A DNA stretch of 64,000 nucleotides, taken from Paenirhodobacter populi (GTDB lineage: Bacteria; Pseudomonadota; Alphaproteobacteria; Rhodobacterales; Rhodobacteraceae). Each line of letters starts with the position of its first letter. Position 1 is the first letter of the stretch. The translations under genes and the position numbers were made by a program. The DNA lies in the NCBI RefSeq assembly GCF_004022215.1, contig NZ_SAUZ01000001.1, positions 1 through 64,000 on the forward strand, in the 5' to 3' direction. A model generated the notes under the pieces. That model did no database searches, was not told the origin of the DNA, and was given only the letters and a program-made list of their open reading frames with translations. Below are positions 18,799-60,023 of this stretch, piece by piece.

Positions 18799-18866
18799 GG
18801 GGGCCAGCCCCCTCTTTGCGCTGACGCGCAAATTCACCCCCGGGATATTTATGGAAACACGACGGG
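18799..18866 (+). repeat. Intergenic repeat copy A
   Basis: The copy consists of GGGGGCCAGCCCCC, then a stem TTTGCGC-TGAC-GCGCAAA, then CACCCCCGGGATATTTATGG and the tail AAACACGACGGGCAG. It lies between the convergent hisI and gluQ genes. It is one of five related copies in the window. Confidence 0.9.
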
Positions 18867-18888
18867 CAGACGATGTGAGCGGGGCGCG

Positions 18889-19725
18889 CTATAGCCCGAT
18901 CATGCGGCGGATGTCGGCGGGGGTGGCGCCCTCGGCGCGGTAGAGGGCGATGGCGCGGGCGTCGTCGCGTTTGGCGAGCCGCTTGCCGTTTTCGTCGCGG
19001 ATCAGCGGGTGGTGGTAGTAGACCGGGACGGGCAGGTGCAGGGCGTTCTGCAAGGTGACGTGGATCGCCGTGGCCTCGAACAGATCCTCGCCCCGCACGA
19101 CATGGGTGACACCCTGTGCCGCGTCATCGAGCACGACCGAGAGGTGGTAGGAGGTTCCCATGTCCCGCCGGGCCAGAACGACATCGCCGACCTCGCGGAT
19201 CATGTGGTCGCGGGTGATGGTCTGGTGGCCGTGGTGCGCCTCGCCGGTTTCGTCGAAGTGGCAATCCGTCGCGATGCGATCCATGTAAAGGCGCAGGGCG
19301 GCGTCGGGCAGCGGCTCGCCGGGGCGCCGCGCGCCGCTGGCGCGGCAGGTGCCGGGATAGACCACCCCGTCGGGGCCGCGCGGGACGCCCTCCTGCGGGG
19401 CGGAAACCGCCGCCTCGATGTCGCGGCGGGTGCAGGAGCAGCGGTAGAGCAGGTCCTGTTCCCAAAGCTCGGCGAGGGTCTGGCGGTAGATGTTCAGCCG
19501 CTCCGACTGCCGCATCACCGGCCCGTCCCATGTCAGCCCGAGCCAGCGCAGGTCGTCGTAGATCTGCGCCTCCCATTCCGGTTTCGCGCGGGCGCGGTCG
19601 ATGTCCTCGATCCGCAGCAGAAAGCGCCCACCCGACGCGCGGGCCATGTCATGCGCGCGGATCGCGCTGTAGGCATGACCCAGATGCAGGGGCCCGGTGG
19701 GCGAGGGCGCGAACCGGGTGATCAC
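18889..19725 (-). CDS. gluQ: Glutamyl-Q tRNA(Asp) synthetase
   Basis: GluQ (YadB) attaches glutamate to the queuosine of tRNA-Asp. It is a shortened GluRS catalytic domain of 278 residues with no anticodon-binding domain. It shows the HIGH-type motif (FAPSPTGPLHLGHAYSA), a zinc site (CSCTRRDI and YPGTCR) and the KMSKS-type KRLAKR. No ATG fits the start. GTG at 19725 begins right after the trmFO stop (one base between), with AAGG in the end of trmFO as ribosome site, so the two genes are coupled. Confidence 0.93.
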   Translation of the reverse strand: MITRFAPSPTGPLHLGHAYSAIRAHDMARASGGRFLLRIEDIDRARAKPEWEAQIYDDLRWLGLTWDGPVMRQSERLNIYRQTLAELWEQDLLYRCSCTRRDIEAAVSAPQEGVPRGPDGVVYPGTCRASGARRPGEPLPDAALRLYMDRIATDCHFDETGEAHHGHQTITRDHMIREVGDVVLARRDMGTSYHLSVVLDDAAQGVTHVVRGEDLFEATAIHVTLQNALHLPVPVYYHHPLIRDENGKRLAKRDDARAIALYRAEGATPADIRRMIGL

Positions 19726-19726
19726 C

Positions 19727-21064
19727 TCAGCCTTGTCCCGCAAGCCATTGGCTGAACGTCTCTTTGGCGCGATCGGTATAGGCCTTGTAGCGGTCCTTGC
19801 GGCCGCGCCGGCCACCCTTTGCCTCGATCGGCGGGAACAGCCCGAAATTCACGTTCATCGGCTGGAAGGTCTTTGCCTCGGCCCCGCCGGTGATGTGATG
19901 CACAAGGCTGCCCATGGCGGTGTCCGGTCCCGGCGGGGGCAGGTCGCGCCCCAGAATTTCCGCCGCCGCCATGCGCCCGGCCAGTAGGCCCATCGCCGCG
20001 CTTTCGACATAGCCCTCGACCCCGGTGATCTGCCCGGCGAAGCGCAGGTTCGGGCGCGCGCGCAGCCGCATCCGGTCGTCCAGAAGCGTGGGCGAGTTCA
20101 GGAAGGTGTTGCGGTGGATCCCGCCAAGCCGCGCGAAACTCGCGTTCTCCAGCCCCGGAATCATTCGGAAAACGGCGGTCTGCGCGCCATATTTCATTTT
20201 GGTCTGAAAGCCGACGATATTGTAGAGCGTGCCGAGCGCATTGTCCCGGCGCAGCTGCACCACGGCATAGGGCTTCACGTCGGGCTGATGCGCGTTGGTC
20301 AGGCCGATGGGTTTCATCGGGCCGAAACGCAGTGTCTCGCGCCCGCGTTCGGCCATCACCTCGATCGGCAGGCAGCCGTCGAAATAGCCCGCCGTCTCGC
20401 CCTCGTGGAAGGCGGTCTTTTCCGCCGCCAGAAGCGCGTCGATGAAGGCCTCATACTGATCCCGGGTCATCGGGCAGTTGAGATAGGCCTTCTGCTCCTC
20501 CTCGGTCTCGCCCTTGTCGTAGCGGCTTTGGCGCCAGGCGATGGTCTCGTCGATACTGTCGGCATAGACGATGGGCGCGATGGCGTCGAAGAAGGCGAGG
20601 CTTTCGGCCCCCGTCACCGCGCGGATGCTTTCGGCCAGTGCCCCCGAGGTCAGCGGCCCGGTGGCGATGATCCAGTGCCCGTCGGTGGGCAGGTCGGTGA
20701 TTTCCCCATCGGCGAAGGAGATCAGCGGATGCGACCGCAGGGCGGCGGTGACCGCCTCGGAAAAGGCCTCGCGGTCCACCGCCAGCGCGCCGCCGGCGGG
20801 CAGCTGGTGGCGATCCGCCATCTGCATGATGAGCCCGTTCGCCACCCGCATTTCCCAATGCAGCAAGCCCACGGCATTGCGTTCGTCATCGTCCGAGCGG
20901 AACGAATTCGAACAGACCATTTCCGCGAAATTTCCGGTCTGATGCGCGAAGGTGCCGACACCCGGACGCATCTCGTGCAGCACCACGGGCACGCCCATCG
21001 CGGCCGCCTGCCAGGCGGCCTCCGATCCGGCCATGCCGCCGCCTATGATGTGAAGCGTTTCCAT
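19727..21064 (-). CDS. trmFO: Methylenetetrahydrofolate-tRNA (uracil-5-)-methyltransferase
   Basis: TrmFO makes ribothymidine-54 in the T-loop of tRNA using methylene-THF and FADH2. The 445-residue flavoprotein has the FAD-binding [11 protein letters not shown] at 8-18, the conserved CSNSFRSDD segment near 51, and the C-terminal [11 protein letters not shown] region. It is followed directly by gluQ, which also modifies tRNA. It uses a route different from the SAM-dependent TrmA and is common in Gram-positives and Alphaproteobacteria. Confidence 0.96.
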
Positions 21065-21116
21065 GGGCGGGTGATAGCCTCCCGCCCATGCTGTTGCAAT
21101 CGGTCCGTAACCCGCG

Positions 21117-21818
21117 TCAGTAACCGGGCAGGATTTCCTGCAGGCCGCGCCCGCCGAAGGTCACGCCCTGTCCGGGGCCGAAGGTCGCCTTGACGCCAAG
21201 CGTCAGGAACACTTCCTTGTCGGAATTCTTCGGATCGGCATAGCCCAGTTCGCCGTTGACCGCGTAGCCGGGGGCGAATTCGTAGCTTGTCGTCGCGCTC
21301 AGGCGCGGCATCCCCATATCGGTGTTCAGCGTGTCGAAGCGGCCGCCGACGGTCAGCTGGTTGGTCAACTGGTAATCGCCGCGCAGGCCGACGCCATAGC
21401 CGTCTTCCTTCTCGCCGTCGAAATACAGGCCATATCCCTCGACCGCGATCGGGCCGAGCGACTGGCGCGCCTCGAAGCCGTAGAATTCGCCGCCGTTGTC
21501 ATGGCTCAGCCAGTCCTTGCCGACGAAGCCGCCGATGGCGGTGTCGGGGCCGGCGTGGAAGATGCCGTGGCCGGTGAAGGTCGTGCCCTTCCAGTTGGCG
21601 AAGCCGTAGTAGCGCTGCGCCAGATCGCCCTGAAAGGCGAATTGCGGGGTGATGGCGAATTCCAGCGCGCCCCCCAGCGTCGCCTTGTGCGCGTCGCGCG
21701 CATCGGCATCGCCGAAGGTGGAATAGTCGAGACCGATCTCGGCACTGGTGATCTCTGCCTGCGCCATGCCGGGAAGCGCAGCCGTGGCGCAGAGCGCCCA
21801 AGCAAGAGCCTGTTTCAT
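21117..21818 (-). CDS. Secreted beta-barrel-like (porin-type) protein
   Basis: This 233-residue protein has a clear signal peptide cut after AQA ([21 protein letters not shown]). The mature part is built of alternating short strands rich in Tyr, Phe and Gly ([47 protein letters not shown]), as in outer-membrane beta-barrels or Rhodobacterales porin-like proteins. It is shorter than classical porins (about 300 residues) and ends in LPGY rather than a terminal Phe, so barrel insertion is not certain. The family name is inferred. It lies alone downstream of gyrA. Confidence 0.6.
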
Positions 21819-21862
21819 CGTTTACCTCTTTTGCGGGCCGTCTGATGCGGCTGTTCTGCTCT

Positions 21863-21888
21863 GCCCGCGGGGCCGGGGCCCCGCGGGC
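21863..21888 (-). terminator. Hairpin after gyrA
   Basis: GCCCGCGGGGCC-GG-GGCCCCGCGGGC is a perfect GC-rich dyad six bases after the gyrA stop. No T-run follows, so termination strength is unclear. Confidence 0.55.
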
Positions 21889-21893
21889 GGTTC

Positions 21894-24620
<2,727 letters not shown>

Positions 24621-24722
24621 GCGGTTGCTCGTTTTTTCTGGATATTGTTGTCCCGACTTATAACCCCTCCAACGTCTTGAGCGCAATCGTCAAGGCGGCA
24701 GGTGCGGGGGGTGGCGCGGGGT

Positions 24723-25220
24723 TCAGCGCCGGGCAAGCCAGAAAGCGCGCAGCCACAGCGCCGCGAAGACCAGCGAGAAGAGCGCGTTCAGGTTCGGCAT
24801 GGTGACGCCGAACATCTGCCAGGCGATCTCGTCGCAGCGGATGACGGGGCTGTTCTGGATATGGGCGAGCAGGTCCGCGGCCGACATCGACCCCACCGGC
24901 GCCGCCGTGCAGGTGTCCGGCCCGGCGATCAGGTGCCGCTCGACCAGCGAATGGTAGATGCCCATCCCCGCCGTCACCAGCGCCGCCAGCGCGCCCAGGA
25001 GCGCGGTCACCATCGGCAGCCGGAAGATCAGGATCGCCACGCCGAGGATCGCCGCTACCAGATGCGGCCAGCGTTGCAGGATGCACAGATGGCACGGCGC
25101 ATAGCCGAGCGCCTGAAAGATCAGCGCCCCTACCAGGATCGCGGCCGAGCCGAAGGCTGCGGCGGCGACCAGCAGGCGCGACGAATTCAGGACGGTGACG
25201 ATCAACGAACGAAGGGTCAC
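24723..25220 (-). CDS. dsbB: Disulfide bond formation protein B
   Basis: DsbB reoxidises DsbA and passes electrons to quinones. The 165-residue product has four membrane helices. The first periplasmic loop has the redox pair CHLC near residues 43-46. The second loop has the Cys pair (PDTCTAAP and PVIRCDE). Length and layout match the family. It lies four bases after the VTT-domain gene stop, on the same strand, so the two are probably cotranscribed. Confidence 0.92.
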   Translation of the reverse strand: MTLRSLIVTVLNSSRLLVAAAAFGSAAILVGALIFQALGYAPCHLCILQRWPHLVAAILGVAILIFRLPMVTALLGALAALVTAGMGIYHSLVERHLIAGPDTCTAAPVGSMSAADLLAHIQNSPVIRCDEIAWQMFGVTMPNLNALFSLVFAALWLRAFWLARR

Positions 25221-25224
25221 GGGA

Positions 25225-25806
25225 TCAGCCTTTCAGGAAATACCATGCGGCGATCAGCACGATCAGGACCGCCCCGGCGATCCAGGCCATGCGCTTTTCG
25301 ATGAAATGCGCGATGCTGGCGCCGTAGCGCGACAGGAGCCAGCCGAGCCCGTAGAACCGCGCCGACCGCGCGACGATCGCCGACAGGATGAACAGCACGG
25401 GATCGAAGCTGATGACACCCGCAAGGATCGTCACCACCTTCATCGGCGGCACATGCGCAAGCCCCGATGTCACCAGCATCGCAAGGATCGCCAGATCGCC
25501 GGTGGTGCCCTGCAGCCTCTCGAAGCTGTCCATCTTGCCCATGGCTTCCAGCATCGGCCGCCCGATCATGTCGAAGGCGTAATGGCCCAGAAGCCAGCCG
25601 AAGATCCCGCCCAGCACCGAAAACAGCGAGGCGATGAAGGCGTAGTGCCACACCCGGTCGGGCCGCGACAGGCACATCGGCACGAACAGCACATCGGCCG
25701 GGATCGGGAAGAACGAGCTTTCGACGAAACTGACGCCGCCGAGCGCCACATCGGCGCGCGGATGTCCCGCGAGGCCCAACGTCCAGTGATAGAGCTTGCG
25801 GAACAT
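25225..25806 (-). CDS. YqaA-like VTT-domain (SNARE-associated/DedA-type) membrane protein
   Basis: The 193-residue membrane protein has the VTT/DedA core: FVESSFFPIPADVLFVPMCL near the start, GGIFGWLLGHYAFD in the middle, and ARSARFYGLGWLLSRYG near the end. DedA-family proteins take part in lipid scrambling and membrane homeostasis; the exact substrate is unknown here. This short form resembles YqaA. It lies directly upstream of dsbB, and its start ATG 25806 follows GGAGG-like GGGAAGTGC. Confidence 0.85.
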   Translation of the reverse strand: MFRKLYHWTLGLAGHPRADVALGGVSFVESSFFPIPADVLFVPMCLSRPDRVWHYAFIASLFSVLGGIFGWLLGHYAFDMIGRPMLEAMGKMDSFERLQGTTGDLAILAMLVTSGLAHVPPMKVVTILAGVISFDPVLFILSAIVARSARFYGLGWLLSRYGASIAHFIEKRMAWIAGAVLIVLIAAWYFLKG

Positions 25807-25951
25807 GCACTTCCCTCCGTTTGCCGTTGCATCGCCTCTTAGGGCGGGCGCGTCAAGCCGATCAGGCCTTTTGCCCGCCGCCCGGGGGCGCTAATCTCGG
25901 TTTCGTGAGATCGGATGCCTGTCCGGTTTTTCCAAACACGGAGGATCGGCG

Positions 25952-26806
25952 ATGAAGTGGCAGGGACGGCGCGGCAGCGGCAATATCGAGGACCGGCGCG
26001 GGCAGGGCGGCGGCGGCATGCGCATCGGCGGCAGCGCCGGTCTGGGCGTTCTGGCGGTGGTTCTGGTCGGCTGGTTCTTCGGCGTCGACTTGACGCCCCT
26101 GCTGACCGGCCAGCAGGACGGGCAGGTGGTGCAGACCTCGGGCGAGCTGACCGAGGAGGACCGCCAGATGGGCGATTTCGTCTCGGTCACGCTGGCCGAT
26201 ACCGAAGAGGTCTGGGCGAACATCTTCGAAACCCAGCTCGGCCGGACCTATACGCCCTCGACGCTGGTGCTTTACAGTCAGGTCACGCCGTCTTCCTGCG
26301 GCACCGCCTCGGGCGCGACGGGGCCGTTCTACTGCCCCGAGGACAAGAAGATCTATCTGGACACCGATTTCTTCGCCACCCTGTCGCGGCAACTGGGCGC
26401 GCAGGGCGATTTCGCCGCCGCCTATGTCATCGCGCATGAGGTGGGCCACCACGTGCAGGACGAACTCGGCATCCTGTCACAGGTCAACGCCGTCCGCGCC
26501 CGCAGCTCCGAAGCCGAAAGCAAAGCGCTTTCCGTGCGGGTCGAGCTGCAGGCGGATTGTTTCGCGGGCGTCTGGGCGCGCCATGCGGCGGAACAGTTCG
26601 GCTCGCTCGACGAGGGCGACATCGCCGAGGCGATGAACGCCGCCTCGAAGATCGGCGACGACACGCTGCAACGCAACGCCGGCCGCCGGCCGATGCCCGA
26701 CAGCTTCACCCACGGCACCTCGGAACAGCGGCAGCGCTGGTTCGCGGCGGGCTTCCGCACCGGCGAGATCGGCTCCTGCGACACGTTCTCGGCGCAAGGT
26801 CTGTGA
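25952..26806 (+). CDS. Neutral zinc metallopeptidase (YpfJ family)
   Basis: The 284-residue protein has a short Gly/Arg-rich cytoplasmic head (KWQGRRGSGNIEDRRGQGGGG), one membrane helix (about 30-45), and a large periplasmic domain with the zinc motif HEVGHH near residue 163 and the downstream Glu/Asp region ADCFAGVWA. These are hallmarks of the putative neutral zinc metallopeptidase family (YpfJ, pfam Zn_peptidase). The natural substrate is unknown. It is divergent from the VTT-domain gene. The tRNA-Arg gene follows 86 bases after the stop. Confidence 0.9.
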   Translation: MKWQGRRGSGNIEDRRGQGGGGMRIGGSAGLGVLAVVLVGWFFGVDLTPLLTGQQDGQVVQTSGELTEEDRQMGDFVSVTLADTEEVWANIFETQLGRTYTPSTLVLYSQVTPSSCGTASGATGPFYCPEDKKIYLDTDFFATLSRQLGAQGDFAAAYVIAHEVGHHVQDELGILSQVNAVRARSSEAESKALSVRVELQADCFAGVWARHAAEQFGSLDEGDIAEAMNAASKIGDDTLQRNAGRRPMPDSFTHGTSEQRQRWFAAGFRTGEIGSCDTFSAQGL

Positions 26807-26892
26807 GCCGGGGCGGGAAATTTGCTTTGATTTCTGCAAAACCCGCTTGTAGACAACCCGCATGAGGGGCCAGCCGCCCCAAGACGTTCAGC

Positions 26893-26969
26893 GGTCCCGT
26901 AGCTCAGCTGGATAGAGCAGCCGCCTTCTAAGCGGCTGGTCGGGGGTTCGAGTCCTCCCGGGATCGCCA
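26893..26969 (+). tRNA. tRNA-Arg(TCT)
   Basis: The gene has a standard cloverleaf. Acceptor GGTCCCG pairs with CGGGATC (one G-U), the D-arm is GCTCAGCTGGATAGAGC, the anticodon loop carries TCT, and the T-arm is GGGGGTTCGAGTCCTCC, with encoded CCA. The length is 77 nt. Accessory DNA begins right after it. Confidence 0.95.
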
Positions 26970-26998
26970 ATGTCTTTTAATGCCAACGCGGCATAAGA

Positions 26999-27027
26999 AT
27001 GCACACTTTGGCCGTTTTCATGCACAC
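26999..27027. repeat. Direct repeat ATGCACAC, 21 bp apart
   Basis: ATGCACAC occurs at 26999-27006 and 27020-27027, two helical turns apart, 30 bases after tRNA-Arg. Spaced short repeats of this kind occur at the ends of IS21-type elements, so this may be an insertion sequence scar. There is no transposase nearby. The identity is a guess. Confidence 0.3.
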
Positions 27028-27204
27028 CCCTGTCAAGTGATATTTTCGAGATCAGAACCGTGGCTGCGCAAGCCGTCCCTAGCGGCCTTGCCACCTGGTC
27101 GCCGAACGTCGCTTTGGAGCCCATAGCGGTCATTGGCATGTTGAAGGCAAATTTCCCTGATGCGCTCACACGATGGTAGCCGAGGCAACTTTTAAGGCCA
27201 TTCT

Positions 27205-27603
27205 ATGTCGATATTTCTGATGAAGTCCTCAAGCCCGGGTTGCTCTTTGCAGTTCTCAAACCGGTCACCAGACTATGTTGATGTGACTATCGAAACCCCA
27301 AATCTGCGCGCTATGAAGCGTGTTTTCATCTACGACTACACCTCGTCCGGCGGTTTTGTTGAATATTTTCAGATTCTGGCAGGGCACTCGCGCCGTTGGG
27401 AGGGTGAAAAAGCTTGGGAAACGTTAGAGGGAGAACTCCATCTGGGGGCTACCTGCGATGCCTGGGGCCATGTTCAACTGGAGATAGTGCTGCGGGACTA
27501 CCAACTCGACTGGTCGGTTAGGTGCAGTTTACTCTTCGATTTGGGAATGCTGTCAGAACACGCAAGTGATGCTGCAAGCTTCATGGCTTCGCCACCGAAC
27601 TGA
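27205..27603 (+). CDS. DUF6228 family protein, accessory
   Basis: This 132-residue protein resembles DUF6228, seen in SPDYVDVTIE, RVFIYDYTSSG, FFxxLA-type EYFQILAGHSRRWEGEKAWETLEGEL, and LGATCDAWGHVQLEIVLRD. No function is known for the family; many members occur beside toxin-immunity or other accessory genes, which I state only from memory. It is less GC-rich than its neighbours and stands alone after tRNA-Arg, which suggests acquisition. The start is uncertain; a later Met at the sequence MKSSSPG is possible. No signal peptide or membrane helix is seen. Confidence 0.65.
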   Translation: MSIFLMKSSSPGCSLQFSNRSPDYVDVTIETPNLRAMKRVFIYDYTSSGGFVEYFQILAGHSRRWEGEKAWETLEGELHLGATCDAWGHVQLEIVLRDYQLDWSVRCSLLFDLGMLSEHASDAASFMASPPN

Positions 27604-27675
27604 TGACCACTTCGTCCCGCATAGCCACCCCCTCCCAGCATGGAGTGCATGCTTATGCCGTAACGGTATCTGTGT

Positions 27676-28887: not shown

Positions 28888-28953
28888 CGGAGGTCCCGGT
28901 CAATGGTGAGTGCCCGGCACATGTATTGCCTGCCGGGCCGTTGCGAAATTATA

Positions 28954-28963
28954 ATGCCGGCAT
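28954..28963. promoter_or_regulatory. Candidate LysR-type operator
   Basis: ATGCCGGCAT is a perfect 10-bp dyad in the 96-base space between the MFS gene and its LysR regulator, next to an AT-rich stretch (AAATTATA). Function is inferred. Confidence 0.4.
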
Positions 28964-28983
28964 GTCGAGTATATCAGGATTGT

Positions 28984-29883: not shown

Positions 29884-29889
29884 TCCCGC

Positions 29890-46026: not shown

Positions 46027-46044
46027 AATACCGCTTCTGCCTTT

Positions 46045-46102
46045 CGTGTTTCCATAAATATCCCGGGGGTGAGCCCGGAACGGGCGAGGGGGCTGGCCCC
46101 CT
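46045..46102 (-). repeat. Intergenic repeat copy B
   Basis: Reads TTTCCATAAATATCCCGGGG, then GTGA, a stem GCCCG-GAA-CGGGC, then GGGGGCTGGCCCCC. It is in inverse orientation to copy A and lies between the convergent potC-like and hydrolase genes. Confidence 0.9.
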
Positions 46103-46138
46103 TGCGACCTCTCAGCCCGCATTTCCATCCCCAAAACG

Positions 46139-46167
46139 CAAAAGGCCCGCATCGCGCGGGCCTTTTT
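46139..46167. terminator. Terminator shared by convergent genes
   Basis: AAAAGGCCCGC-ATCG-CGCGGGCCTTTTT has a GC stem with an A-run before and a T-run after, so it can work on both strands, closing the ABC operon and the hydrolase gene. Confidence 0.9.
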
Positions 46168-49314: not shown

Positions 49315-49357
49315 TGCCCCACGCTTCCCGGAACCGCCCGAAACCCTTCCCCTTCAT

Positions 49358-49410
49358 TCTTCCCCAAATATCCCGGGGGTGAGGCCGAAGGCCGAGGGGG
49401 CTGGCCCCCT
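49358..49410 (-). repeat. Intergenic repeat copy C
   Basis: Reads TTCCCCAAATATCCCGGGGG, TGA, a stem GGCC-GAA-GGCC, then GGGGGCTGGCCCCC. It lies after mntH and shows the most divergent TTTCCATAAATA end. Confidence 0.85.
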
Positions 49411-51310: not shown

Positions 51311-52095
51311 GCTGCCTCGATCCTCGCGCCCTGGGTGACATCCTCGGGCGTCAGCGCGTAGAGCGCGTCGAGGAAGGCCGGCTGGAACGTGCCGGGGCCG
51401 GCGCAGACCGCCGCCGCCCGTTCGCCCGCAAGCCCGTAATAGGCCAGCGCCGCCGCCGTGGCCTCAAGCGGCGGCTGGTCCACCAGAAACGCCGCGATCA
51501 CGCCGTTCAGCGAACAGCCCGAAACGGTGATCTTCGCCATCATCGGATCGCCGTTCGCCACCCGCAGGGCGCGGGTGCCATCGGTCACGTAATCCACCGG
51601 CCCGGTCGCGACGACGATATGCCCGGTGCGCCCGGCGAGTTCCCGCGCCGCCGTCTCGGCCGAGGCGACGCTGTCCACCGCATCGACCCCGCGCGCGCCC
51701 TTGCCCCGCCCCGCCAGCGTCAGGATCTCCGAGGCGTTGCCGCGCACCACCGTCGGGCACAGGGCCAGAAGATCGCGGCACAGGTCGTTGCGGAACTGCG
51801 TCGCGCCGACGCCGACCGGGTCGAAGACCCAGGGCCGCCCGTGACCGTTCATCGCCGCCCCGGCAAGCCGCATCGACATCGCCTTGAGGCTGTCCGCCGT
51901 GCCGATGTTCACCGTCAGCGCATCGGCAAGCGCGGTGAACTCCACCACCTCCTCGGCCGCATCCGCCATGGCGGGCGAGGCGCCGGCCGCGATCTGGACA
52001 TTCGCCATCATGTTCATCGCGACGTTGTTGGTGATGTTCTGCACCAGCGGCGCGCGCGCCCGCATCCGTTGCAGATAGTGGCCTGTGTCTTCCAT
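51307..52095 (-). CDS. thiM: Hydroxyethylthiazole kinase
   Basis: ThiM salvages hydroxyethylthiazole by phosphorylation. The 262-residue product has PLVQNITNNVAMNMMANV near the start, WVFDPVGVGAT, and the active loop SGCSLNGVIAAF. ATG 52095 follows GTGAGGAC, and a small hairpin covers the ribosome site region. The longer open frame upstream is the riboswitch, not protein. First gene of a salvage-type operon with no thiC or thiG here. Confidence 0.95.
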   Translation of the reverse strand: MEDTGHYLQRMRARAPLVQNITNNVAMNMMANVQIAAGASPAMADAAEEVVEFTALADALTVNIGTADSLKAMSMRLAGAAMNGHGRPWVFDPVGVGATQFRNDLCRDLLALCPTVVRGNASEILTLAGRGKGARGVDAVDSVASAETAARELAGRTGHIVVATGPVDYVTDGTRALRVANGDPMMAKITVSGCSLNGVIAAFLVDQPPLEATAAALAYYGLAGERAAAVCAGPGTFQPAFLDALYALTPEDVTQGARIEAA

Positions 52096-52103
52096 GTCCT
52101 CAC

Positions 52104-52119
52104 TCCCCGCCGACGGGGA
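52104..52119 (-). promoter_or_regulatory. Hairpin next to the thiM ribosome site
   Basis: On the minus strand CCCCG-TCGG-CGGGG lies just before GTGAGG, so its 3' arm sits against the Shine-Dalgarno region. It may be the expression platform of the TPP riboswitch. Confidence 0.5.
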
Positions 52120-52147
52120 ACGGACGGAAGGCGGCAAGGGGCCACCC

Positions 52148-52230
52148 GCGTCACGACTTCCTCCGCCGGCATGACCCGGTTCAGGTTCCAAGGGTTCTTC
52201 TCAGCCCGTCTGAACGGACGCCCCTGTCGC
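52148..52230 (-). ncRNA. TPP riboswitch (THI box)
   Basis: The minus strand carries the conserved parts in order: GACAGGGGCGTC, GGCTGAGA, ACCCTTGGAACCTGAAC, CCGGGTCATGCCGGCG and GAGGAAGTCGTG. They match the thiamine pyrophosphate aptamer (P1 to P5). It controls thiMED. No clear intrinsic terminator follows; control of translation start is more likely. Confidence 0.95.
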
Positions 52231-52387
52231 GGGGGCAGACTGCGGCGGCGGGGGCACCGCTGTCAAGGGGGCGGGGCATCATATCCCGGTGGCCATCGCC
52301 GCGGCCTTCGGGTAACACGGACCGGCATCCGATGGCGCGCGGCCCGCGGATGCCGCGACACCCGCCCGCGATGACCCGGAGGCTTCC

Positions 52388-52762
52388 ATGCGCCTTTTCC
52401 CCGTATTCCTCGCATTGGCGGGCCTTGCCGGTTGCGCCGCGCTGTCCTATCCGCCCGAGCCGGGGCGCGTCTCGCTCAGCACCGAGCGGCTGACGGTGCA
52501 TTTCGTCGATGGCTCGTCGTGCAGCGCCGATATTGCGCGCGAGCCCTCGGGCCGGTTCGCGGATTGCGGGCAGGTGATGGACTATGCCGTCGACATCCAG
52601 CGCCCGTCCTTCGTCGCGGGAACGCCGCTCGAACCGCTGTTCGAGCCCTACGGCACGATCACCCTGATCCGCCCCGCCGATGGCCGCCGCTGGTTCTGGC
52701 GCACCCCGCAAGAGGACCGGACGGCCGGAAATCCCGGCCCCGGACAGGCCAGATCGCACTGA
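52388..52762 (+). CDS. Small lipoprotein, unknown function
   Basis: The 124-residue protein has a short signal peptide with a lipobox (LAGC at about 13-16), so it should be lipid-anchored. The rest (STERLTVHFVDGSSCSADIA, FADCGQVMDYAVDI) has two Cys that could form a disulfide. I do not recognise the family. It lies between the riboswitch region and yebC, in its own transcription unit. Confidence 0.65.
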   Translation: MRLFPVFLALAGLAGCAALSYPPEPGRVSLSTERLTVHFVDGSSCSADIAREPSGRFADCGQVMDYAVDIQRPSFVAGTPLEPLFEPYGTITLIRPADGRRWFWRTPQEDRTAGNPGPGQARSH

Positions 52763-52866
52763 CCGGGCGGCAATGATGGCGTTTCGCACGCGCCGGTGGC
52801 TTGCGGCCGGGGCGCCTGCTGGCTTATAGAGACGCCAAATTTCATGAATTTCCGACGGAGAAGGGC

Positions 52867-53607
52867 ATGGCAGGCCATTCCAAATGGGCGAACATCCAGC
52901 ACCGCAAGGGCAAGCAGGATGCGATCCGTTCCAAGATGTTCTCGAAGCTGGCGAAGGAAATCACCGTCGCCGCCAAGATGGGGGATCCCGATCCCGAAAA
53001 GAACCCGCGCCTGCGTCTGGCGGTGAAGGCCGCGAAGGCGCAGTCGATGCCGAAGGACGTGATCGACCGCGCGATCAAGAAATCGCAGATGGGCGACGCG
53101 GCGGATTACACCGAAATCCGTTATGAGGGCTACGGCCCGAACGGCATCGCGATCATCGTCGAGGCGATGACCGACAACCTCAACCGCACCGCCTCGAACG
53201 TGCGCAGCTATTTCACCAAGGCGGGCGGAAACCTCGGGCAGACCGGCTCGGTCAGCCACGGCTTCGACCGGATGGGGGAAATCAGCTATCCGGCCTCCGC
53301 GGGCGATGCCGACACGGTGCTGATGGCGGCGCTCGAAGCCGGGGCCGAGGATGTCGAATCGGACGACGAGGGCCACTGGATCTACACCTCGGTCGAGAAC
53401 CTGTCCGACGCGGCCGATGCGCTGGAAAAATCGCTCGGCGAGGCGACCGAGGCGAAGCTGATCTGGAAACCGCAGGTGACGACGGAAGTTGACCTCGACA
53501 CCGCGCAGAAGCTGATGAAGCTGATCGACGCGCTGGAAGAAGACGACGACGTGCAGAACGTGACGCATAATTTCGACGTTCCCGAAGACGTGGCGGCGCA
53601 GCTCTGA
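52867..53607 (+). CDS. yebC: YebC/PmpR family protein
   Basis: The 246-residue YebC-type protein begins [15 protein letters not shown] and has the three-domain layout with an acidic middle and end ([14 protein letters not shown]). Once named a transcription regulator, the family is now linked to translation of proline-rich stretches. In many bacteria it precedes ruvC; here it does not. ATG 52867 follows GGAG (ACGGAGAAGGGC). Confidence 0.95.
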
Positions 53608-53627
53608 TCCTGCGCGTTCCACAAGGC

Positions 53628-53666
53628 GGGCGTCCCGTTCCGACACAGGACCGGGGCGCCCCTTTT
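53628..53666 (+). terminator. Terminator of yebC
   Basis: GGGCGTCCCG and CGGGGCGCCC pair (one T-G) across a 14-base loop, followed by CTTTT. Confidence 0.75.
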
Positions 53667-53682
53667 CATTGGAGGAAGTGAC

Positions 53683-53850
53683 ATGGATTACGGCAAATCG
53701 GGCGGCCCGAAGGTGGCGAAAAACGCTCCGCGCCACCTCGAACACAACCAGAAGGGATCCGAGAAGAACCCCTTCGGCGAGACCGACCCCAAAAGCAAGG
53801 CGGCGCTGCTCGAACGGATGAAGTCCGCGGCGGAAAAGCGCAGGAAATAG
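53683..53850 (+). CDS. 55-residue basic protein, unknown function
   Basis: A short frame follows a strong ribosome site (GGAGGA, 53671-53676) and stops at TAG 53848-53850. The peptide starts MDYGKSGGPKVAKNAP, has no membrane helix, and ends in a charged helix (SKAALLERMKSAAEKRRK). It is basic overall and rich in Lys. From memory, small proteins with a C-terminal KAALLERMKxAAE-type helix are widespread in Rhodobacterales, but I know no function. It sits after the yebC terminator and before repeat copy D. Confidence 0.75.
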   Translation: MDYGKSGGPKVAKNAPRHLEHNQKGSEKNPFGETDPKSKAALLERMKSAAEKRRK

Positions 53851-53885
53851 GAATCTCTCCCTTGGGGGAGAGATCTCTGCCCGTC

Positions 53886-53946
53886 GTTTTTCCATAAATA
53901 TCCCGGGGGTGAATTTGCCGTAAGGCAAAGAGGGGGCTGGCCCCCT
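53886..53946 (-). repeat. Intergenic repeat copy D
   Basis: Reads CGTTTTTCCATAAATATCCC, GGGGGTGAA, a stem TTTGCC-GTAA-GGCAAA, then GGGGGCTGGCCCCC. Its CCCGTCGTTTTTCC end matches the tail of copy A, so the conserved unit extends past the ATTTATGG block. Confidence 0.9.
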
Positions 53947-54046
53947 TTCCCCGCTCTCCGCATGCGGTCCGCCGGTCGGCTGCCTCCGTCTGTGCGGATA
54001 CAATCCCGCGCTTGCGGCCCGCACGCGGGCAGCGCAGAAAAGGCGG

Positions 54047-54967
54047 ATGATCCGATCCTCCGTGCCTTTCGTCTCCGCCCCGGACCAGCCCGTGCAGGGC
54101 GTGCTGTGGATGCTCGCCACGACCATCAGCTTCGTCGGCGTCAACATCATCGTGCATTTCATCGGCACCTCGATCCCGACGGTGCAGAACGCCTTCGTGC
54201 GGTTCGCCTGGGGCTGGCTGTTTCTGGCGCCGGCGATCCTCGCGCTGCGGCACCGGCGGTTTCCGCCGCGGGTCTGGGGGCTGTTCGGCCTGCGCGGCGC
54301 GGTGCATGCGGTCGCGGTGATCCTGTGGTTCTACGCCATGGCGCGGGTGCCGATGGCCGATGTCACGGCGATCGGCTATCTGAACCCGATCGTGGTGACG
54401 ATCGGCGGGGCGCTCCTGCTGGGCGAGGGGTTCGCGTGGCGCCGGGGTCTGGCGATCGTCATCGGGCTGATCGGCGGGCTCATCATCCTGCGCCCCGGCC
54501 TGCGCGAGATCGAGCCCGGCCATATCGCCCAGCTCGGCGCGGCCCTGTTCTTCGGTATCGCCTATATCGTCGCCAAGGGCCTCACGCGCTTTGCCAGCCC
54601 GGGCGACATCGTGGCGATGATGACGGTCACCGTGACGCTGGTGCTGGCCCCCTTCGCCATCGCGGTCTGGGTGCCGCTGACATGGGCGCAGGTCGGCTGG
54701 ATCGGGCTGACGGCGGCTTTCGCGACGCTCGGGCACTATTGCATGACGCGGGCCTTCGCCTGCGCGCCGGTGACGGTGACGCAGCCCGTCACCTTCCTGC
54801 AACTGGTCTGGGCCTCGATGGCGGGCTGGCTGCTGTTTGGCGAAACGGTCGACCCTTACGTCATTCTGGGCGGCGGGCTGATCATCACCGCGGTCAGCTA
54901 CATGACCTGGCGGGAGGCCGCGACCCGCCGCCAGCTCACTCCGGTGGTGCCGGCGACCAAGGTCTAG
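54047..54967 (+). CDS. DMT superfamily transporter (EamA)
   Basis: The 306-residue protein has ten predicted helices in two EamA repeats (MARVPMADVTAIGYLNP and CAPVTVTQPVTFLQLVWAS). Substrate unknown. It starts after repeat copy D and is convergent with choV, whose stop it overlaps by four bases. It is only distantly similar to the other EamA protein at 9794-10753. Confidence 0.88.
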   Translation: MIRSSVPFVSAPDQPVQGVLWMLATTISFVGVNIIVHFIGTSIPTVQNAFVRFAWGWLFLAPAILALRHRRFPPRVWGLFGLRGAVHAVAVILWFYAMARVPMADVTAIGYLNPIVVTIGGALLLGEGFAWRRGLAIVIGLIGGLIILRPGLREIEPGHIAQLGAALFFGIAYIVAKGLTRFASPGDIVAMMTVTVTLVLAPFAIAVWVPLTWAQVGWIGLTAAFATLGHYCMTRAFACAPVTVTQPVTFLQLVWASMAGWLLFGETVDPYVILGGGLIITAVSYMTWREAATRRQLTPVVPATKV

Positions 54968-55980
54968 CCCGCGTTGCGCGGGTCCAGCAGCCGCGTCATG
55001 ACCCCGGCCCGGGTGATCCGCCGCCCGTCGGCGAGGGGCAGGCTCTCGGCCGCGCAGAGCTGGGCCATCACCTCGCGCACCGGGGTCTTTGGATCCACGG
55101 GCGCGCCCTCGGTCGAACCCGGCTCCGCCAGATCCGCCGCCGTCAGCACGTTCAGCGGGTTCATATGGGCGACGAAATCCTCGACATAGGCGTCGATCGG
55201 ATTGGCGATGATGTCGCGCGCGGTGCCGATCTGCACGATCCGCCCGCCTTCCATCAGCGCGATGCGGTTGCCGATCTTGAACGCCTCGTCGAGGTCATGG
55301 CTGACGAAGATGATCGTGCGGCGCAGCGTCTTTTGCAGGTCCAGCAATTCATCCTGCAACTTCGCGCGGATCAGCGGGTCGAGCGCGGAAAACGGTTCGT
55401 CCATCAGCAGGATCGGCGCATCGGTGACGAAGGCGCGGGCAAGGCCGACGCGCTGCTGCATGCCGCCCGACAGATCGCCCACGCGCCGCTCGGCCCAGTC
55501 GGAGAGACCCACGAGCGCAAGCTGTTGGTCCACCTTTTCTCGCCATACGGTCTTGGGCAGGCCCGCAAGCTCCAGCCCCAGCCCGACGTTCTCGCGCACG
55601 GTGCGCCAGGGCAGCAGGCCGAACTGCTGGAACACCATCGCCACCCGGTTCAGCCGCAGCCGCCGCAGCGTCGCCGCATCGGCGCGGGTGACAGAGGTCA
55701 GCTTGCCGCCATCCAGAATGCGCACATTGCCCCGGCACACCGGGTTGAGCCCGTTCACCGCGCGCAGCAGCGTCGATTTCCCCGACCCGGACAGGCCCAT
55801 GAGCACGAGGATCTCCCCCTCCGCCACGCTGAGGGTGCAGTTATGGACGCCCAGCACCTGCCCGGTGCGCTCCTTGATCTCGGCGCGGCTCAGCCCCTGA
55901 TCCATCAGCGGCAGGGCCTTTTCCGGCGCATCGCCGAAGACGATGTTAACGGCGTCGAATTCGACGGCTGTGCGGCTCAT
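54964..55980 (-). CDS. choV: Choline ABC transporter ATP-binding protein
   Basis: The 338-residue ATPase of the glycine betaine/choline class has Walker A (GLSGSGKST), signature (LSGGMQQR) and Walker B (ILLMDEP), and a C-terminal extension in place of full CBS domains. ATG overlaps the choW stop (four bases). It powers choline import that feeds the divergent betBA enzymes. Confidence 0.94.
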   Translation of the reverse strand: MSRTAVEFDAVNIVFGDAPEKALPLMDQGLSRAEIKERTGQVLGVHNCTLSVAEGEILVLMGLSGSGKSTLLRAVNGLNPVCRGNVRILDGGKLTSVTRADAATLRRLRLNRVAMVFQQFGLLPWRTVRENVGLGLELAGLPKTVWREKVDQQLALVGLSDWAERRVGDLSGGMQQRVGLARAFVTDAPILLMDEPFSALDPLIRAKLQDELLDLQKTLRRTIIFVSHDLDEAFKIGNRIALMEGGRIVQIGTARDIIANPIDAYVEDFVAHMNPLNVLTAADLAEPGSTEGAPVDPKTPVREVMAQLCAAESLPLADGRRITRAGVMTRLLDPRNAG

Positions 55981-56813
55981 TTGCGGTCTCCTTTCCGCAG
56001 CATCCGGTCGAGGATGATCGCGACGATGACGATGACGAAGCCCGATTCAAATCCAAGCGCGGTATTGACCGAGTTCAGCGCCCGCACCACCGGCACGCCC
56101 AGCCCGTTCGCGCCGACCAGCGCTGCGATCACCACCATCGACAGCGACAGCATGATGGTCTGGTTCAGCCCGGCCATGATCTGCGGCATGGCATAGGGCA
56201 GCTCGACCTTCCACAGCAACTGGCGCGGCGTGGCGCCAAAGGATTTCGCCGCCTCGATCAGCGATTGCGGGGTCGAGGACACGCCCAGATGGGTCAGCCG
56301 GATCGGCGCCGGCAGCACGAAGATCACCGTGGCGATCAGCCCCGGCACCATGCCGATGCCGAAGAACACGATCGCCGGGATCAGATAGACGAAGGTGGGC
56401 AGCGTCTGCATCAGGTCGAGCACCGGCTGCATCGCGGCATAGAGCCTTGGCCGGTGCGCGGCGGCGATGCCGACCGGCACGCCGATCGCCAGACAGACGA
56501 CACAGGCCGACAGCACCAGCGTCAGGCTTTCGGTCATGGGCTTCCAGTAGCCCTGATTGAGGATGAACAGAAAGCCGAGGATGACCAGCAGCACGGTTTT
56601 CCAGTTGCGCTGCACGAGCCACGTCAGCCCCGCGCACAGCGCGATGATGACGACCGGATGCGGCGACTGCAAAAGCCACAGGATACCATTGATGAGATGC
56701 TGCAACACCGTCGAGAGCGCGTCGAAAAAGCCCCCCGCGTGATCCTTGAGCCAGTCGAATAGGTTCTTCGCGGTCCTGCCGACCGGAATCTTGTTGGCCG
56801 TCAGCCAATCCAT
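55977..56813 (-). CDS. choW: Choline ABC transporter permease
   Basis: The 278-residue permease has about six membrane helices and the permease loop AAKSFGATPRQLLWKVELPYAMP. It belongs to the ProW/OpuAB/ChoW type. ATG 56813 follows AAGGAG. It lies between choX and choV in the order X-W-V, as in Sinorhizobium. Confidence 0.94.
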   Translation of the reverse strand: MDWLTANKIPVGRTAKNLFDWLKDHAGGFFDALSTVLQHLINGILWLLQSPHPVVIIALCAGLTWLVQRNWKTVLLVILGFLFILNQGYWKPMTESLTLVLSACVVCLAIGVPVGIAAAHRPRLYAAMQPVLDLMQTLPTFVYLIPAIVFFGIGMVPGLIATVIFVLPAPIRLTHLGVSSTPQSLIEAAKSFGATPRQLLWKVELPYAMPQIMAGLNQTIMLSLSMVVIAALVGANGLGVPVVRALNSVNTALGFESGFVIVIVAIILDRMLRKGDRK

Positions 56814-56877
56814 CGGGTGTTCTCCTTGCCCGCCCATGTCTGGAAGCGGCCCCCGGTTGCCGGGGGCCGGATCCGGA

Positions 56878-57807
56878 TCAGTTCAGCGCCTTCTGCACCG
56901 CGGCCTCGGCATCGCCGCCGTCCTTGGTGGTGACACCCGCGAGCCACGGGGTCACGACCTCGGGATGGGCGGCCAGCCATGCCTTCGCGGCAGCGGCCGG
57001 TTCCTCGCCGTCGTCGAGGATGCGGCCCATGATCTCGTTTTCCAGGGGCAGGGTGAATTCGAGGTTGGTCAGGAACTTGCCGATGTTGGGACATTCCGCA
57101 ACATAGCCCTTGCGGACATTGGTGTCGACCTGCGCGCCGCCGAAGTCCGGCCCGAAGATGTCGTCGCCGCCCGACAGATAGGTCAGCTCGAAATTCGAGT
57201 TCATCGGATGCGGCGCCCAGCCGAGGAAGACCACCGGCGATCCTTCGCGGTCGGCGCGGGCGACCTGCGCCAGCATCCCCTGTTCGGAGCTTTCGACGAT
57301 TTCAAAGCCCTTCAGGCCGAACTTGTCCTCTTCCGTCATCTCGATCAGCAGGCGGTTGCCGTCGTTGCCGGGCTCGATCCCGTAGATCTTGCCGCCAAGT
57401 TCGTCCTTGTGCGGGGCGATGTCGGCGAAATCCTTGATGCCGATTTCCGCGCCCTTCGCATTGGTGGCGAGCGTGTATTTCGCGCCGGTCAGGTTGGTGC
57501 GGATCGTCTCGACCGAGCCGTCTTCCAGATAGGGGCCGACATCGGCGGTCTGCGACGGCATCCAGTTGCCAAGGAAGACATCCACATCCCCGGCCTTCAT
57601 CGCCGTATAGGTCACCGGCAGCGACAAGAGCTTGACGTCCGTTTCATAGCCGAGGGCCTGAAGGATCGTCGTCGCCACCCCGGTCGTCGCCGAGATGTCG
57701 GTCCAGCCGACATCGGCGAAGGTCACCTTGTCGCAGCCCGCGGCCTGCGCCGACTGGCCGATCGCCAGAGCCGCCGTTCCCGCCAGAAGAAAAGCGCGTA
57801 GCATCAT
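56878..57807 (-). CDS. choX: Choline-binding periplasmic protein
   Basis: The 309-residue protein has a signal peptide cut after AQA (before AGCDKVTF). The mature part has the aromatic residues used by ChoX to cage the quaternary amine: Trp in VGWTDIS, Trp in GNWMPSQ, and Trp in FLGWAPHPMN. It is the first gene of choXWV and is divergent from betI. ATG 57807 or the next codon 57804 could be the start. Confidence 0.94.
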   Translation of the reverse strand: MMLRAFLLAGTAALAIGQSAQAAGCDKVTFADVGWTDISATTGVATTILQALGYETDVKLLSLPVTYTAMKAGDVDVFLGNWMPSQTADVGPYLEDGSVETIRTNLTGAKYTLATNAKGAEIGIKDFADIAPHKDELGGKIYGIEPGNDGNRLLIEMTEEDKFGLKGFEIVESSEQGMLAQVARADREGSPVVFLGWAPHPMNSNFELTYLSGGDDIFGPDFGGAQVDTNVRKGYVAECPNIGKFLTNLEFTLPLENEIMGRILDDGEEPAAAAKAWLAAHPEVVTPWLAGVTTKDGGDAEAAVQKALN

Positions 57808-57850
57808 TTGGGGTCGTCTCCGTGTTGAGTGGACCGAAATCCGGTTTTTG

Positions 57851-57870
57851 TTGATTGACGAGTCAATAAA
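57851..57870. promoter_or_regulatory. Candidate BetI operator between choX and betI
   Basis: TTGATTGACGAGTCAATAAA contains the perfect dyad ATTGAC-GA-GTCAAT (57854-57867). It resembles known BetI sites (TTGATTGGACGTTCAATA type, from memory). Placed between the two divergent operons, it could repress both until choline is present. Confidence 0.65.
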
Positions 57871-57923
57871 CTTGCCGTTAGCTCCATTGTGCAACTCCTT
57901 TTTATCGCAAAGGGCGCAAAGCC

Positions 57924-58505
57924 ATGCCGAAGGTCGGTGCAGAGCCTATTCGACGGGCAGCTTTGGTGAAAGCCACGATTGAAACCGTGGGGGAGGCCGG
58001 CTCGCTCGAGGTCACGGTCGCGCAGATCGCGCGGCGCGCGGGCATGAGCTCGGCGCTGGCGCATCACTATTTCGGCTCCAAGGAACAGATCTTTCTGGCG
58101 GCGATGCGGTCGATCCTGTCGATCTACGGGGCCGAGGTGCGCGGCGCGCTGTCCACCGCGACGGGACCGGAACAGCGGCTGCGCGCGATCGTCACCGGCA
58201 GCTTTTCGCATGGCAGCTTCCGGCGGGAGGCGATTTCCGCCTGGCTGAACTTCTACGTTCTCGCCCAGGCCCAGCCCGAGGCGCGGCGGCTCTTGCGGGT
58301 CTATCAGCGGCGGCTGCGGTCGAACCTGCGGCATGAGCTGCGCCAACTGGTCGGGGCGCGGGCCGAGGCGGTGGCCCGTGGTCTGGGGGCGCTGATCGAC
58401 GGGGTCTATATCCGCGCGGCACTGGCCGACAACGCGCCGGACCGGGCCTATGCGCTTAAGATCGTTATGGAATACGTGGACAGAGAACTGGGGGACCGGG
58501 CATGA
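57924..58505 (+). CDS. betI: HTH-type transcriptional repressor BetI
   Basis: The 193-residue TetR-family repressor has an N-terminal HTH ([26 protein letters not shown]) and a ligand domain matching BetI ([22 protein letters not shown]). It senses choline and controls bet genes. Its stop overlaps the betB start. ATG 57924 is preceded by GGGCGCAAAGCC, a weak ribosome site. Confidence 0.94.
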
Positions 58506-59953
58506 GAGCACAACCTGCGGCCAGCCATTTCGTCAACGGCGAATGGCTTGAGGACACCGCCGGAGAGGTCATCGAGGTGATCTATCCCGGCACCGGCGAG
58601 GTGATCGCGCGGCTGCATTCCGCGACGCCCTCGGTGATCGGCGCGGCGCTGTCGGGCGCGGTCGCCGCGCAGGCCGCGTGGGGCCGGATGCGGCCCGTGG
58701 AACGGTCGCGCATCCTGATGCGGGCGGTGGCGATCATCCGCGAACGGGGGGCGGAACTGGCCGAGCTGGAGACGCTCGACACCGGCAAGCCGATTCAGGA
58801 AACGCTGGTGGCGGACTGGCCCTCGGGTGCCGATGCGCTGGAATATTTCGCCGGTCTCGCGCCCACGGTGACGGGCGAGACGATCCCCTTGGGCGGCGAT
58901 TTCGCCTATACGATCCGCGAGCCTCTGGGCGTCTGCGTGGGCATCGGCGCGTGGAACTATCCCAGCCAGATCGCGTGCTGGAAGGCGGCCCCGGCGCTGT
59001 CCCTGGGCAATGCTATGGTGTTCAAACCCTCCGAGGTCACACCTCTGGGAGCCTTGAAGCTTGCTGAAATTTTCATCGAGGCGGGGATGCCTGCCGGGGT
59101 TTTCAACGTCGTTCAGGGCTATGGCAATGTGGGCGCGGCGCTGGCGACCGATTCGCGGGTGGCGAAAGTCTCGCTCACCGGCTCGGTGCCGACGGGCCGC
59201 AAGGTCTATGCCGCCGCCGCTTCGGGCATGAAGCATGTGACGATGGAGCTGGGCGGCAAATCTCCGCTCATCATCTTTGACGATGCCGATCTGGAAAGCG
59301 CGATCGGCGCGGCGATGCTGGGGAATTTCTATTCCTCGGGGCAGATCTGTTCCAACGGCACCCGCGTTTTCGTGCAGCGCGGCATCAAGGAGCGGTTCCT
59401 GACCCGTCTGGCCGCGCGGACCGAGGCGATTCTGGCGGGCGATCCGCTGGACCCGGAAACGCAGTTCGGTCCGCTGGTCAGCGCCGCGCAGCATGAAAAG
59501 GTCATGGAATATATCGGCAAGGCGAAGGCCGAGGGCGCGCGGCTGATCACCGGCGGCGCCGCGGGCAATCACGGCCCGCTTTTCGTGCAGCCGACGGTTT
59601 TCGCCGATGTGACGGATGACATGACCCTGGCGCGCGAAGAGGTCTTTGGCCCCGTTATGGCGGTACTGGATTTCGACAGCGAGGAAGAGGCGATCGCCCG
59701 TGCGAACGGCACCGAATTCGGGCTGGCGGCCGGGGTGTTCACGGCCGATCTGGCGCGCGGGCACCGGGTGATCGCGCAGCTTCAGGCGGGGACCTGCTGG
59801 ATCAACGCCTACAACCTGACGCCGGTCGAGATGCCCTTCGGCGCGGTGAAGGCCTCGGGCGTCGGGCGGGAAAATTCCAGGGCGGCGGTCGAGCATTACA
59901 CCCAAGTGAAGGCAGTCTACGTGGGCACCGGGCCGGTCGACAGCCCCTATTGA
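58502..59953 (+). CDS. betB: Betaine aldehyde dehydrogenase
   Basis: BetB oxidises betaine aldehyde to glycine betaine with NAD(P). The 483-residue aldehyde dehydrogenase has the cofactor loop SLTGSVPTG, the general base Glu in TMELGGKSP, and the nucleophile Cys in [10 protein letters not shown]. The ATG overlaps the betI stop. Product betaine serves as an osmoprotectant. Confidence 0.96.
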
Positions 59954-59956
59954 AGG

Positions 59957-60023
59957 CGCCGGGGGCCAGCCCGTCGTGGCGGTGCCCCGACCCCCCGGGA
60001 TATTTATGGAAAGCCGAAAGGGA
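59957..60023 (+). repeat. Intergenic repeat copy E, inside the bet operon
   Basis: A diverged copy: GGGGGCCAGCCC, an imperfect central stem GTCGTGGC-GGT-GCCCCGAC (one mismatch), then CCCCCCGGGATATTTATGG and AAAGCCGAAAGGGAA. It separates betB from betA, and its tail (AAAGGGA) doubles as the betA ribosome site. Confidence 0.8.

Follow-up and report, generated by a model that had tools for sequence, protein, structure and literature searches.

A short palindromic element, present five times in the 64,000 nt that open contig NZ_SAUZ01000001.1 of Paenirhodobacter populi (this whole stretch being the window) and hundreds of times in the genome, combines a central stem that varies in sequence while keeping its pairing with a marked preference for the ends of genes. 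It is tentatively proposed, at a probability of about 0.45, that this is a dispersed extragenic DNA palindrome resembling the repetitive extragenic palindromic (REP) elements, with upkeep at the level of DNA and retention at gene ends. Perfect pairing would be kept mainly in the DNA: a single strand may fold into a hairpin, often with a G..A loop, template-switching replication would rewrite one arm after the sequence of its partner, and stems would be swapped when copies recombine with one another. Copies would then persist near stop codons, probably as two-way transcript-end hairpins, the GC hairpin in transcripts arriving from either side defining the 3' end through an exonuclease block or help to termination, and copies away from gene ends would be removed by selection. 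DNA-level upkeep is suggested by the Watson-Crick pairing of the central stem, a strand bias under DNA folding parameters, the polarity of the loops, equal run lengths, and substitutions shared by inverted copies. Exchange between copies is suggested by the missing link between left box and central stem and by inner segments that differ in kind at orthologous sites, and retention at gene ends by the occupancy of convergent, tandem and divergent gaps and by the proximity of tandem copies to the upstream stop codon.

The element comprises, in order, a variable left box, an AAATA-YYYC core, a G-run (G(n)), an optional stem (H1), and a hairpin of the form G(n)-loop-C(n) (H2). In the source genome, the left box occurs as CCTTCATTCTTCC, CCGTCGTTTTTCC, CTTTCGTGTTTCC, CTTTCATCTTTCC and relatives of these, and is usually followed by AT, then by AAATATCCC, the G-run, usually TGA, H1, GA, and H2, the latter made of a G-run, a loop (CTGG, CAGCG or CGGCG) and a C-run and followed by T and, as a tail, some 14 nt rich in pyrimidines. 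In relatives, the left box varies by genome, with YTTC kept in most copies and often CC ahead of the core; the core reads AAATA followed by TCC, CTC, CCT or GCC, and H1 is missing in many. A subclass carries a longer insert with an extra hairpin around CCTTCC AGT GGAAGG; here (for example at the source-genome loci L042, L043, L046 and L047) the outer stem also varies with pairing kept, and one reading frame of the insert is protein-like in look. Across the 4.78 Mb genome (91 contigs), the exact string CATAAATATCCCGGGG occurs 242 times (119 forward and 123 reverse; none for the reversed-pattern control) and AAATATCCCGGGGG 315 times, so that the copy number of five given in an earlier note on the window stands for the window and is a large undercount for the genome. 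With up to one mismatch, AAATATCCCGGGG was found at 113 sites in 835 kb, made up of the window and further stretches, some of them picked for holding copies. A scan of candidate elements gave at least 150 matches, a lower bound given that 150 of 6671 first-look candidates were scored and all of them matched.

The earlier note had argued from the five copies that the central stem covaries, and had named a lack of covariation in a large alignment as the finding that would tell against this; covariation was found in the samples examined. An uninterrupted stem of at least 4 bp is present in 41 of 42 distinct inner segments of the source genome, compared with 28% of dinucleotide shuffles, in 45 of 49 from relatives (34% of shuffles), and in 11 of 13 from other loci (19%). 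When 16 distinct 18-mers were aligned without gaps, covariation scored 0.590 against a shuffled mean of 0.124, with none of 500 shuffles as high, and both-side changes were seen in four of the five H1 pairs; sliding the alignment lowered the score to at most 0.043.

Several properties of H1 and its surroundings point to DNA rather than RNA as the level at which pairing is kept. A script counted 233 Watson-Crick pairs among 234 in the H1 stems of the source genome, a count which lets the loop grow to 5 nt and thereby hides mismatches beside it; by eye, two G.T and one A.A were found at the loop-closing position among the 42 sequences. The frequent loops are GAA, GCA, GTCA and CTTG; loops of the GNA and GNNA types have unusual stability in DNA. 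Under DNA parameters, 79 of 100 distinct segments fold more stably on the element strand and 5 on the other (p = 2e-13), whereas under RNA parameters the figures were 32 and 29 (p = 0.4). The polarity of the loops follows the element and not the direction of transcription: the element strand carries the G..A loop in 11 of 14 tandem copies with that strand sense, in 15 of 18 with it antisense, in 36 of 56 convergent copies, and in 4 of 7 divergent ones. The G.U tolerance and the tie to the transcribed strand that would be expected of a selected RNA hairpin are thus not seen in H1. It is possible that a protein reads the G..A-looped hairpins in single-stranded DNA.

Coordinated change extends beyond H1. 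The first G-run, for which a simple H2 hairpin has no need, equals the C-run in length in 94 of 103 copies of the source genome (shuffle mean 77.5, maximum 85), in 84 of 101 from relatives (65.2 and 76), and in 35 of 48 from other loci (19 and 29); all of the 5000 shuffles made per set were exceeded in all three sets, which omit the copies lacking a parsable H2 (7 of 110, 4 of 105 and 5 of 53, respectively). Versions with runs of 4/4/4 and 6/6/6 recur in different genomes. Either the first G-run can pair with the C-run in an alternative fold, or the arms have been copied onto each other. Taken with the Watson-Crick pairs of H1 and loop polarity independent of transcription, these coordinated changes outside H1 do not favour an RNA constraint. 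The earlier view that pairing-preserving changes argue for selection on a folded RNA or DNA is therefore weakened in its RNA part, and the evidence points to DNA, which that view also allowed.

G158 and G159, the genomes of two closely related species, share gene order at about 93% identity, and 18 element sites could be matched between them. The inner segment is the same at eight of these and different in kind at four, namely one with a flipped stem pair and a new loop (GTCCC-GCA-GGGAC against GTCCG-CTTG-CGGAC), one with a wholly different H1, and two with an inner stem in one species only. A single arm or the loop has changed at two sites, and H2 has been lost or altered in G158 at four. Change at fixed sites is thus fast. 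Two elements were called in G158 only (one of them interrupted in G159), and the aligned part has seven called in G159 only. One site carries a pair in G159, longer by 127 nt, where G158 has a single GGGGGGCGCTGCCCCCC hairpin, a difference that looks like what a deletion between repeated H2 arms would leave; no clear target-site duplication was seen at the empty sites inspected. At orthologous sites of the two species (L246-L283), the three bases after AAATA switch among TCC, CCT and GCC; GCC accompanies left boxes such as CTTGGCGC, with which it would give a small inverted repeat across AAATA.

The four pairs of adjacent inverted copies read in these two species share 2, 2, 2 and 0 identical box or core substitutions, compared with a mean of 0.32 for non-adjacent copies (permutation p = 0.008), in a test that entered the partner at 278k, missed by the script, as zero and excluded a pair near 92k, the second member of which is interrupted in G159. 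The boxes of close pairs in the plus-minus arrangement are also somewhat alike in the source genome (five pairs, p = 0.03), and those of three close pairs each in G158 (p = 0.012) and G159 (p = 0.004) are alike. Among 97 copies of the source genome, H1 is unlinked to the middle of the left box (mutual information 1.076 against 1.014, standard deviation 0.060, with 319 of 2000 shuffles as high), even though only about 20 nt or less separates them; H1 is, by contrast, associated with the loop of H2 (none of 2000 shuffles as high). Copies thus have the look of mosaics and not of units amplified whole. A more sweeping statement, that the RNA-like covariation of a family-wide repeat is made by DNA copying between inverted arms together with the shuffling of two separate modules, the left box and the hairpin cassette, over hundreds of sites, and without selection on RNA, is regarded as possible if doubtful.

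The position of copies relative to genes was derived for 109 of the 113 sites, using genes called by a simple codon-usage script, with which starts are rough and small genes may be missed. All but one (108 of 109) lie outside called genes; by context, 62 of the 109 are convergent, 23 tandem in antisense orientation, 17 tandem in sense orientation, and 7 divergent. Since other stretches had been picked for holding copies, rates of occupancy were limited to C1 and C2 (464 kb), where, counting gaps of 60 nt or more, a copy was found in 19 of 38 that are convergent, 20 of 127 that are tandem and 2 of 67 that are divergent (p = 7e-9). For 31 of 40 copies in tandem gaps, the upstream stop is nearer than the next start (p = 7e-4). 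These counts bear out the observation, first made on five copies, that the repeat occurs in both orientations at gene ends. A canonical terminator elsewhere in the gap accompanies the element in 1 of 32 tandem gaps, against 32 of 167 gaps without element (p = 0.034).

Several observations weigh against the proposal of DNA-level upkeep with retention at gene ends. In convergent gaps, canonical terminators are not significantly rarer beside an element (11 of 53 against 7 of 20, p = 0.23; 7 of 19 against 6 of 17 in the unselected part), and no T-tract directly follows H2, the pyrimidine-rich tail standing in its place. The rarity of G.T pairs in H1 relative to 33 canonical terminators of the same genome (27 G.T in 316 pairs; Fisher p = 2e-5, using the hand figure of 2 in 239) was measured against a control that admits G.T by design, and the H1 stems of relatives are less clean, with 235 Watson-Crick pairs of 256, partly owing to mis-parsed segments. 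Related copies count as independent in the shuffles used for covariation. Loop inversion, a possible product of template switching, is rare in the element. Finally, close pairs in the minus-plus arrangement share boxes no more than expected by chance, either in the source genome (n = 9, p = 0.33) or in G151 (n = 6, p = 0.57), which speaks against a general local copying of arms. Local inverted duplication as the source of close pairs is accordingly unsupported for the minus-plus pairs of these two genomes. A strict terminator finder fired in 8 of 109 elements on the element strand and in 33 of 109 on the other, so that at most a minority qualify as intrinsic terminators. The element as the only terminator of convergent genes is likewise unsupported, canonical terminators coexisting with it and one adjoining a window copy.

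Orthologous gaps across the genus bear on the alternatives. The gap after the aldehyde dehydrogenase gene that holds the fifth window copy (copy E) was readable in 17 of 18 genomes, 15 of which have a recognisable element with core, one a hairpin with a degenerate core, and one no core. This gap (window 59960-60020; loci L185-L202) thus retains the element across most of the genus though flanked by same-strand genes. The next start codon lies only some 20 to 45 nt downstream in several genomes, which makes a strong terminator there seem unlikely. Of the 13 genomes readable at the hisI site (copy A), 3 carry the element, 1 has it in part and 9 are without it, five of the 18 loci having been left out for a wrong frame or strand.

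A classical RNA element, with H1 and H2 selected as hairpins of the 3' untranslated region that serve as an exonuclease barrier or in processing or termination, and with covariation arising by compensatory evolution, would account for the copies near stop codons, the covariation of H1, the retention of site E in 15 of 17 readable genomes despite sequence change, and the scarcity of canonical terminators beside elements in tandem gaps. It sits poorly with the near absence of G.U pairs in H1, with a loop polarity that follows the element and not the transcript, with an equal first G-run that is superfluous for a simple hairpin, with tandem copies that run either way (17 sense, 23 antisense), and with the lack of H1 in many relatives, and is considered rather unlikely. 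The equal run lengths, with their 4/4/4 and 6/6/6 versions in different genomes, might instead belong to an attenuator-like two-state switch in which the C-run pairs with either the nearby or the first G-run; arm copying accounts for them equally well, elements stand at gene ends in both orientations, and a leader-gene context is missing, which leaves this alternative the least probable of all. Hardly more probable is a putative site at which gyrase or a nucleoid protein would bind and so relieve the supercoiling that arises between convergent genes, as has been proposed for some enterobacterial bacterial interspersed mosaic elements (BIMEs): the enrichment between convergent genes and the conserved AAATA-YYYC core fit it, and by itself it leaves the paired but variable stems and the equal runs unexplained.

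A selfish mobile repeat, moved by an enzyme acting in trans on hairpins of single-stranded DNA and found at gene ends as places where insertion is tolerated, would explain why counts of AAATATCCCGGGGGTGA, which is present in 18 of 18 genomes of the genus, range from 3 to 266, why orthologous sites differ in presence, why loops are DNA-stable on one strand, and why one H1 allele recurs at many sites (one inner segment is found in 14 copies). It is judged improbable. A search for Y1 transposases (PF01797) gave no match in the source genome or in 17 genomes of the same genus, other enzyme families lying outside the search, with 5 of 14 control genomes positive; the co-distributed REP-associated transposase suggested earlier was therefore not found in the genus, and a REP with its REP-associated tyrosine transposase (RAYT) in the strict sense is rejected. 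Inspected empty sites lack clear target-site duplications, at least one of the absences resembles the outcome of deletion between H2 arms, and the unlinked box and H1 indicate that copies are not intact units. A plasmid or phage origin was considered and rejected, one 75-nt query from copy D, the only version of the element searched there, having matched three plasmid records and one unannotated phage record.

Similar repeats had been thought to exist in other Rhodobacterales, and they were indeed found in many related genomes of one family. Among 149 genomes drawn from the order, AAATATCCCGGGGG is present in 101, all of one family (58 of 72 genera), and the looser CCNNAAATAYYYCGGGG in 94, with one hit overall for the reversed control. 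In a sample of 115 genomes from the class, 4 match, one of them the source genome. The other three have a single hit each and belong to the 113 genomes outside the family, for which two hits are obtained even with the reversed control, so that the element is at control level there. A GTDB scan with a short form lacking H1 returned 19 stretches, 15 of them in named genera including Paracoccus, Rhodovulum, Jannaschia and Phaeobacter, 2 from further Rhodobacteraceae, and 2 from a metagenome-assembled genome labelled Alphaproteobacteria; from these taxa, the family carrying the element would be the Rhodobacteraceae. Stretches of G158, G024, G100 and G001 taken regardless of hits held one diverged copy, in G024 (2-mismatch pattern).

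Within the window, a covariance model of 62 columns, built from 24 copies of the source genome with copy B included, recovered exactly the five copies already noted (E-values 7e-26 to 3e-9; next match E = 0.15), and their stems agree with those first described. Copy A (18798..18865, minus strand; E = 1.7e-16, with support from sequence) has H1 at 18815-18832 (TTTGCGC/GCGCAAA) and H2 at 18799-18812, and lies in a convergent gap between a hisI-like (phosphoribosyl-AMP cyclohydrolase, PRA-CH) gene on the plus strand and a glutamyl-tRNA-synthetase-like gene on the minus strand. Copy B (46041..46102, plus strand; E = 7.1e-26, being itself part of the model) has H1 at 46073-46085 (GCCCG GAA CGGGC) and H2 at 46088-46101, in a convergent gap 3' of an ABC-transporter permease gene. 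Just past it, at 46138-46167, stands a canonical bidirectional terminator, AAAAGGCCCGC with GCGGGCCTTTTT, so that copy B is not the sole possible end signal of this gap. Copy C (49351..49410, plus strand; E = 1.1e-19), 3' of an Nramp-like transporter gene, has H1 at 49383-49393 (GGCC GAA GGCC) and H2 at 49396-49409. Copy D (53881..53946, plus strand; E = 8.6e-17) shows the left box at 53881-53893, the core AAATATCCC at 53896-53904, the first G-run at 53905-53909, H1 at 53914-53929 (TTTGCC GTAA GGCAAA) and H2 at 53932-53945. Copy E is degenerate (59960..60020, minus strand; E = 3.3e-9), with an imperfect H1 at 59973-59991 (GTCGTGGC GGT GCCCCGAC), and lies between two plus-strand genes, those for the aldehyde dehydrogenase and a GMC oxidoreductase, about 27 nt ahead of the next start codon. 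The two blocks described as constant are present, except that copy C has TTCCCCAAATATCCC instead of TTTCCATAAATATCCC and copy E has ACGGGCTGGCCCCC. The window holds five exact matches of AAATATCCCGGGG and four of GGGGGCTGGCCCCC; with up to two mismatches, AAATATCCCGGGG matches six times against 1.4 expected (1 of 100 shuffles gets to six), and with up to three, GGGGGCTGGCCCCC matches 34 times, not above shuffles (mean 29), so that the hairpin block alone is not distinctive when loosened. No curated covariance model of a known Rfam RNA family matches the copies: none of the window copies was matched at gathering scores, and in a search of copies B and D up to E = 1 one had no match and the other a single sub-threshold chance match. 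A thiamine pyrophosphate (TPP) riboswitch (Rfam RF00059, 63.8 bits) was noted at 52141-52235 on the minus strand.

REP elements and BIMEs associated with RAYTs are short extragenic palindromes with hundreds of copies at gene 3' ends and in convergent gaps, in both orientations, and carry a conserved GTAG-type tetranucleotide at the foot. The present element is also short, extragenic, found in hundreds of copies at gene ends in both orientations, and sometimes arranged in inverted pairs, so that 'REP-like', as first suggested, is a fair description; it differs in that no Y1 transposase was found in the source genome or its 17 congeners, in that H1 varies widely with pairing kept, and in that left box and H1 are shuffled. 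Bidirectional intrinsic terminators likewise place a GC hairpin between convergent genes, and in tandem gaps the element rarely occurs together with a canonical one; unlike them, it has a pyrimidine-rich tail and no T-tract, does not significantly exclude canonical terminators from convergent gaps, and may stand, as copy E does, shortly before a start codon. In RNA genes, perfect stems and multi-base coordinated changes are ascribed, in the excerpted text of PMC8794818, to DNA replication by template switching rather than to stepwise compensation. The element has similar stems and may share such changes with the hairpins of that excerpt, which concerns RNA genes, whereas here the repeat is dispersed and extragenic and template switching would be the inferred cause. 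Excerpts of PMC6238624 and PMC7866481 report that RNase E sites are enriched in AU and that PNPase-dependent 3' ends show no motif; in its excerpt, PMC2267715 names Brucella and Rickettsia as alphaproteobacteria, with the word Rhodobacter absent, and neither 'motif' nor 'repeat' occurs in the excerpted text of PMC5107571. Searches of open-licence papers by motif string returned none on the repeat, the matches of TATCCCGGGGG concerning other subjects by title, and searches by topic returned nothing describing it, as judged by title or the start of the abstract, which does not show that the repeat is undescribed elsewhere.

Covariation is usually taken as proof that an RNA structure is functional. 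A repeat that joins strong covariation to signs of DNA-level upkeep would offer a good test case for telling template-switch mutation apart from selection, since each genome has hundreds of sites and pairs of close species can be compared. The element also hints at a way in which many transcripts of these bacteria may end.

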